Translations under genes and position numbers: made by a program
In this document: piece after piece, positions 4,480 to 5,270 of the stretch
Layout of the letters: each line of letters starts with the position of its first letter
How positions within the stretch are numbered: position 1 is the first letter of the stretch
Assembly (NCBI GenBank): GCA_013360495.1
Contig: JABWBM010000020.1
Coordinates: 1-33,016 of the forward strand
Reading direction: 5' to 3'
Length of the DNA stretch: 33,016 nt
Source of the DNA: Planctomycetaceae bacterium
GTDB taxonomy: Bacteria; Planctomycetota; UBA8742; UBA2392; JABWBM01
Notes under the pieces: generated by a model
The model's database searches: none
What the model was told of the DNA's origin: nothing
What the model saw: only the letters and a program-made list of their open reading frames with translations

Positions 4480-5121
4480 CTACCACGATGTTGGTTTATG
4501 AAACGTACCATTCTTGTCGGTCAGCGTGGCCGGGAACTGGCTCGCGGCGAGCGCACCCTTGCGAACAATGTAAATCGGGACACGAAGCTCGCGCATGAGC
4601 ATGGCTGGTTGACGGTAGGGGCAGAGAATCGCAACGCGTTTCTTGAGATCATTTCTCACAAGTCTGATGGGATGAATCAAGTCAGTATCGTTGCTGATGA
4701 CAACGCAGGCGTCATATTGTCCCCGATGTCCATCATGCAGCATCTCCACGGCAAGATTGACGTCTGATCCCTTCTCTTCGGTGGTGACGACTTCAACATA
4801 CTTTGGCCGCCCATCCGGGCGACGAACGATCTTCCCATCGCGAATCATCGGACGGCTTATCGTTTTGTTGAGGAACTGTCCCTCCACAATCTCCAAACCT
4901 GGTATCGTTAGAAGCGCCCGAAAATAGGTATCTTGCCTTTGTGGTGCATCGGGATCATCGGGACGTGCTGAAATCCTCGCCCCATAGCATTTGACCCTAG
5001 CGATCACATATTTCTTCAAGACATTTCGGCAAAGAGCATGGATGTTGAGCCAACGATACGGTGTACCCTTGAGTGCTCCGTAGTAAAGATTAAACATATC
5101 TACATAGACATAGGTTTTCAT
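4480..5121 (-). CDS. NYN domain (LabA/PIN-like) putative ribonuclease
   Basis: MKTYVYVDMFNLYYGALKG...KGSDVNLAVEMLHD...DACVVISNDTDLIHPIRLV matches the NYN/LabA pattern. The track ORF starts at 5229, but that extension translates the hairpin array; ATG at 5121 is the likelier start. Confidence 0.85.
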   Translation of the reverse strand: MKTYVYVDMFNLYYGALKGTPYRWLNIHALCRNVLKKYVIARVKCYGARISARPDDPDAPQRQDTYFRALLTIPGLEIVEGQFLNKTISRPMIRDGKIVRRPDGRPKYVEVVTTEEKGSDVNLAVEMLHDGHRGQYDACVVISNDTDLIHPIRLVRNDLKKRVAILCPYRQPAMLMRELRVPIYIVRKGALAASQFPATLTDKNGTFHKPTSW

Positions 5122-5141
5122 TGCATCGGCTAAAATTGGCA

Positions 5142-5209
5142 GAAGCCACCCGGAGGTGGCTTCGCACCCTATCGCCGAAGCGATAGGGGGGGTAATACCC
5201 TTACGGGTA
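5142..5209 (-). promoter_or_regulatory. tandem array of three tetraloop hairpins between hemH and the NYN gene
   Basis: Read on the minus strand: UACCC-GUAA-GGGUA (5196-5209), CCCTATCGC-TTCG-GCGATAGGG (5167-5188), GAAGCCACC-TCCG-GGTGGCTTC (5142-5163). All stems are perfect; loops are GNRA or UNCG class. Confidence 0.75.
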
Positions 5210-5270
5210 CGGGAGCAAGTGTAACACACAGCAATCTATTGTCAAACCGTACACATACCACGTTTCCGCA

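Follow-up and report, generated by a model that had tools for sequence, protein, structure and literature searches.

What role do three tandem hairpins play that lie on the minus strand of a planctomycete contig, between hemH and a gene for a predicted NYN-domain nuclease? The window, meaning the whole stretch of DNA analyzed (33,016 nt), had been described from its letters alone as carrying at this point a strand-specific RNA element with tetraloops, placed in a heme operon, that might act in attenuation or processing or be a substrate of the encoded nuclease. The sequence bears out the three minus-strand hairpins with perfect stems (Table 1), and the triplet (5210-5139, minus strand) sits between a promoter-like site and the nuclease gene. 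The core of the last hairpin, GAAGCCACC(UCCG)GGUGGCUUC, spans 5163-5142 on the minus strand and is extended by a GC at 5165-5164 that pairs with the GC at 5140-5139 and leaves the U at 5141 bulged. An RNA is predicted from sequence to start near 5211 on the minus strand, and between the hairpins and the NYN start (5121) there is no room for a further promoter. Both the U-run and the −10 box of the window are weaker than the family norm. The proposed comparison of folding with shuffled controls was run, and a 109-nt region folds at −47.8 kcal/mol versus −31.6 ± 3.2 kcal/mol for shuffled sequences (z = −5.05), with 0 of 200 shuffles as stable.

Table 1. Coordinates of the NYN gene and of the RNA element with its putative promoter in the window
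Feature	Position	Strand	Remarks
NYN-domain nuclease gene, 213 aa, predicted toxin/effector	4480..5121	-	Pfam NYN, 4e-11
R1-matched conserved RNA	5134..5198	-	72.7 bits, full model length
H2 hairpin, GC-GAAGCCACC(UCCG)GGUGGCUUC-U-GC	5139..5165	-	Terminator-like, then CAAUUUU
H1 hairpin, CCCUAUCGC(UUCG)GCGAUAGGG	5167..5188	-	9 covarying pairs in family; UUCG-type loop kept
H0 hairpin, GUACCC(GUAA)GGGUAU	5195..5210	-	Extra 5'-most hairpin, outside covariance model R1
Promoter −10-like TACACT, 16-nt spacer	5218..5223	-	Predicted from sequence; weaker match than in relatives
Promoter −35-like TTGACA	5240..5245	-	From sequence; relatives have a −35/−10 pair at fixed distance from the RNA

Homologues were gathered by protein similarity alone, using an alignment as the query of genome contigs (a single-protein query of the contigs gave no homologue matches), and the best 80 loci of at least 573 NYN relatives were compared. 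Their upstream regions share one order of parts: behind a promoter come an unpaired AUAUCCC and a UUCG-looped hairpin, which a short linker joins to another hairpin that has a single bulged base, and between this hairpin and the NYN gene is a U-run. A covariance model, R1, was built from 28 seeds, the window among them; its E-values come from a briefly calibrated model. Linkage proved near-universal, as the R1 RNA adjoins the NYN gene at 79 of these best 80 protein-picked loci, and many of the matches are to non-seed sequences (for example L023, L057, L082, L105, L118, and L122). The sole miss, L044, is a NYN gene that is cut by a contig end and apparently interrupted; its RNA and first NYN codons are found on a different contig, on which the reading frame is broken off, possibly by an insertion sequence. 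By the names of the sequence records, RNA–NYN loci are spread over more than a dozen phyla. A survey of the same phylum, in which RNA matches of ~22-25 bits were taken as background, returned eight matches above 40 bits. Seven of them are at NYN loci, one of which is split over two contigs; the other (G371) lies 375 nt from the end of its contig, where its neighborhood is cut off. A 34.6-bit RNA match (G217) was dropped because it lies within apparently coding sequence. The heme operon context is incidental, since among homologues the RNA travels with NYN and not with hem genes. A search for an empty site in the hem region found relatives without hemE within 1.5 kb flanking hemH, and no insertion point was definable there.

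The search of the window's own genome identified a single strong R1 copy (72.7 bits; the runner-up scores 14.9 bits), and the exact H1 sequence is likewise single-copy in the 3.4-Mb genome. The sequence-only reading had named a dispersed repeat as the finding that would count against it; a dispersed repeat was looked for and is ruled out, because the element is single-copy in its genome.

The conserved RNA is ~65 nt long, and its R1 consensus is accounted for by two hairpins. In the window these family members are the two gene-proximal hairpins, H1 and H2, and the match runs through an unpaired ACCC, H1, a linker U, H2 with its bulged U, and a U-rich tail; H0 was not recovered as a conserved element of the RNA family. 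In an alignment of 94 distinct sequences, paired cells make up 95.6%, both sides have changed in 19 of 20 pairs, and the covariation score is 0.622, versus 0.210 for shuffled and ~0.1 for slid partners, although this alignment was fitted to R1, which favors the covariation result. In the MAFFT seed alignment, 16 of 20 pairs covary. The loop of H1 is the sole conserved loop (UUCG in 67 and CUCG in 8 of the 94 sequences), while that of H2 varies widely and its single bulged base is kept (U in 69, A in 13, C in 11). Thus, the emphasis that had been placed on tetraloops holds for H1, but the tetraloops of H2 and H0 are local to the window. A permissive Rfam search of the window region gave no family match, nor did a search of the relatives at the gathering threshold. 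Collectively, the R1 matches, the covariation, and the locus survey strongly support the RNA function, strand specificity, and tie to the NYN gene that had been proposed. By eye, H1 of five loci (L043, L049, L052, L093, and L098) has an internal GUA/GAA-like loop in place of part of the stem, which resembles the loop E (bulged-G) motif.

The NYN protein matches the PADLOC HEC-09 model PDLC04163 almost end to end (residues 3-213, 2.1e-36). Its AlphaFold2 model, made with 51 aligned relatives, has a mean pLDDT of 96, and the best fold matches among solved structures are 2QIP and the NYN domain of MARF1 (2QIP, 5YAA, and 6FDL are listed); a PDB sequence search with the protein gave no match. Residues D8, D120, D145, and D147 are invariant across 51 NYN sequences, and the protein has both the NYN fold and the conserved catalytic aspartates of an NYN nuclease. 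The active-site aspartates of NYN proteins matched by fold are described in earlier work (PMC11346440). Because of the fold match of the model and the invariant aspartates, the protein is expected to be a ribonuclease.

We propose, with a probability of roughly two in three, that the element is its own small gene, encoding an RNA that forms a near-obligate partner of an NYN/PIN-like RNase and is most likely its inhibiting antidote, in a toxin–antitoxin-like and possibly anti-phage arrangement. The gene would encode an RNA of ~65-85 nt with two conserved hairpins, the second doubling as terminator. Made in excess from its own promoter, the RNA would bind the NYN protein directly and hold it inactive, neutralizing a putative toxin; where the RNA lies upstream, its terminator would also limit read-through into NYN. 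If the RNA were lost or diluted, for example upon phage infection or plasmid loss, the RNase would be freed, which is how an anti-phage or addiction role could arise.

The arrangement of the loci bears on whether the RNA acts as a gene of its own or as a cis-acting 5' leader, in which the hairpins would be a terminator or processing site and NYN would autoregulate its own mRNA by cutting or binding the leader. The leader explanation suits the 89 of 100 loci whose RNA precedes NYN on the same strand, at a distance of a few to ~50 nt, and has a terminator-like end. However, at the other 11 the RNA is on the opposite strand, either convergent at the 3' side (8 loci: five from Actinobacteria and three viral contigs, L132-L134) or divergent upstream (3 loci), and Chloroflexota supply two further convergent cases. 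A sigma-70-like promoter scoring at least 10 of 12 precedes 47% of the RNAs, versus 0.35% of mononucleotide shuffles, and in most loci the −10 box ends at a fixed spacing of 8-10 nt before the conserved UCCC. At several loci there are, by eye, tandem RNA copies, each with a promoter-like site and a terminator-like end. From these sequence features the RNA reads as a separate gene with its own sigma-70-like promoter and its own terminator. The opposite-strand loci, the promoter at fixed distance, and the tandem copies with their own ends make a cis leader inadequate, and the RNA also persists without NYN, as described below. Given the opposite-strand loci, acting as a cis leader cannot by itself account for the function in general, and we consider the leader explanation unlikely. 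The attenuation proposed in the sequence-only reading survives in part: the terminator-like last hairpin may attenuate NYN when it lies upstream, and leader cleavage may additionally serve autoregulation in this common arrangement, but a role as leader attenuator or substrate alone leaves the orientation data unexplained. For the suggested role as nuclease substrate, a partner or antitoxin role fits better.

A survey of 301 Chloroflexota genomes, in which 97 RNA matches at E ≤ 1e-5 were compared with NYN matches, placed 67 of the RNAs no more than 500 bp from a NYN match, with stops or frameshifts breaking several of these NYN genes, and left 30 with no NYN match within 500 bp. Among the orphans that were inspected, one RNA stands before a NYN gene that has an early stop (L211) and another before a truncated NYN (L204); the hflX and MazEF cases below are further ones. 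RNAs thus stand beside dead NYN genes. Fourteen NYN genes seemingly devoid of the RNA were also reexamined, and for seven or eight of them R1 matches more weakly nearby, in one case on the opposite strand; three more share another upstream hairpin pair, and a few show nothing clear. As judged from these genomes, NYN without RNA appears to be rare and RNA without intact NYN to be common or tolerated. That the RNA is kept without NYN while the reverse is rare is therefore the pattern expected of an antidote and its toxin.

The same pattern weighs on the idea that the NYN nuclease uses the RNA as an activating cofactor, sensor, or guide and is not inhibited by it. The near-obligate linkage would suit any ribonucleoprotein, as would the conservation of the unpaired AUCCC 5' segment, the UUCG loop, and the bulged base. 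However, survival of the RNA without NYN and the rarity of NYN without the RNA fit an antidote better, and the lack of a variable guide segment in the RNA makes a guide role unlikely. We therefore regard the activator explanation as decidedly unlikely. The orphan RNAs, including three before hflX, count at the same time against an antidote-only reading, and an additional or different role is possible for them. These three Chloroflexota RNAs (L205, L212, and L214) lie upstream of an hflX-like gene, named by eye from its translation, with no NYN, and may be retained antidotes or recruited regulators. At L192 (1501-2400), an RNA without NYN lies just before a MazEF-like toxin–antitoxin pair (also named by eye from translation), and L074 (1366-1690) carries a tandem duplication: of its first NYN a stretch of ~50 codons is left, beside an intact RNA, and the second unit is complete.

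It is very improbable that the element is only a cassette for a cargo gene, a promoter plus insulating terminator with no RNA function. The second hairpin with its U-run does look like an intrinsic terminator, and NYN loci occur on plasmids, viral contigs, and varied chromosomal sites, but H1 is not involved in termination and yet all 9 of its pairs covary; in addition, unpaired segments and the bulged base are conserved, and convergent RNA copies exist. Scarcely credible is a type I-like antisense RNA pairing with the NYN mRNA. Its C-rich 5' end could in principle base-pair with a purine-rich ribosome-binding site, and an SD-like motif is present in 26 of 58 loci; yet the RNA 5' end and the NYN leader show no cognate pairing, the energy being no better than after swapping partners (187 of 200 permutations equal or exceed the cognate strength).

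Variants among relatives, in which the RNA itself differs, also speak for the antidote reading. On 4.6-kb plasmids of E. coli, four to five tandem hairpin units of 29-33 nt are followed by a terminator and then NYN, and the plasmids differ by one unit, showing unit gain between plasmids; on 5.4-kb Klebsiella plasmids there is a different RNA, in two units. For more distant NYN proteins, linkage was assessed by eye. In a distant branch (Pseudomonas, Xanthomonas, Rhizobium, Cupriavidus, and others), the equivalent position holds a different RNA: a hairpin is enclosed by pairing between a 5' ACCCC-like strand and GGGGU, and an A/U-flanked terminator follows. RNA and NYN protein thus seem, from these comparisons, to diversify together. 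The NYN subgroup of L260, L261, and L262 has two adjacent upstream hairpins; on the opposite strand these read as a hairpin followed by a terminator, and they may represent a third type of RNA. On Cupriavidus and Rhizobium plasmids (L181, 1399-2421; L182, 1492-2469), NYN is apparently fused to an Xre/MbcA/ParS toxin-binding domain. A 3461-bp plasmid found in Serratia and E. coli (L017) has only three annotated genes, for a helix-turn-helix protein, NYN with a hairpin RNA, and a VbhA-family antitoxin. In Pseudomonas syringae pB76-81 (L244, 574-1536), NYN homologues carry the annotation nicB (6-hydroxy-3-succinoylpyridine 3-monooxygenase), apparently in error.

On balance, we lean toward the view that these loci make up an undescribed class of RNA–protein toxin–antitoxin or anti-phage systems, in which HEC-09-like NYN RNases would each be restrained by a dedicated hairpin RNA, drawn from several unrelated RNA families according to branch. 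The class would extend over at least a dozen phyla, plasmids, and prophages, with solitary antidotes in many genomes. Against an antidote stands the finding that most loci have one RNA unit and no tandem array, and against a defense role one Pseudomonas study, in which HEC-09 correlated with phage susceptibility and not with resistance (PMC12447246). The open-access literature searched gave no description of a NYN protein with an RNA antitoxin or of an RNA partner of HEC-09, and novelty rests on this and on Rfam 15.

To our knowledge, few families of protein toxins, among them ToxN-like proteins and AbiF, have known RNA antidotes. If our reading is correct, an unrelated toxin fold (NYN/PIN-like) and a new, very widespread RNA family would join the RNA-antidote systems. 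The PADLOC HEC-09 model, which the window protein matches, describes the protein alone as a candidate defense gene; this candidate would gain its missing partner, and there would be a reason why expressing the protein alone may mislead. The compact versions on small E. coli plasmids open the system to direct testing.

Several known systems resemble the pair in part. DUF3800-motif RNAs of Rfam are associated with DUF3800 genes and are likewise diverse structured RNAs beside a putative nuclease family, but that protein is unrelated to NYN; a DUF3800-VII RNA (Rfam RF02967) lies near the distant NYN gene of L181 (1080-1164), which may be coincidence. The CRISPR-associated NYN protein of Bacteroides fragilis, for which Mn-dependent RNA cleavage has been shown (PMC11346440), MARF1, and VPA0982 have the NYN fold and conserved aspartates in common with the window protein, but their genomic context differs and no dedicated hairpin RNA is reported for them. 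Type III systems (ToxIN, CptIN, and TenpIN) consist of a small RNA, a terminator, and an endoribonuclease (PMC5086642). Their layout of RNA, Rho-independent terminator, and toxin under one promoter is matched in the window and in 89 of 100 loci, with other orientations in 11. Of the tandem repeats typical of their antitoxin RNAs, the E. coli plasmids show four to five units, several loci two units, and the window one unit plus an unrelated hairpin. Unlike type III RNAs, the NYN-linked RNA is mostly a single unit and sometimes convergent or divergent; the type III antitoxin is pseudoknotted, the consensus here is accounted for by two hairpins, and the window protein (Pfam NYN; NYN fold as in 2QIP, 5YAA, and 6FDL) is not homologous to ToxN, CptN, or TenpN. 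In AbiF/RCd22 of C. difficile, a promoter, a short hairpin-motif RNA, a terminator, and an RNase toxin follow one another, and RCd22 neutralizes AbiF by direct binding, in cis and in trans (PMC12373285). The NYN loci have this same order, with a predicted toxin. However, the AbiF toxin belongs to Abi_2/AbiD/F (Cas13-related) and its RNA is Rfam RF03085 (abiF RNA motif), in contrast to an NYN fold and an RNA without any Rfam match. The NYN–RNA pair is thus a member of neither type III nor AbiF/RCd22, and the best-supported reading, by analogy, is that it would work in the manner of both, with a toxin and an RNA unrelated to theirs.
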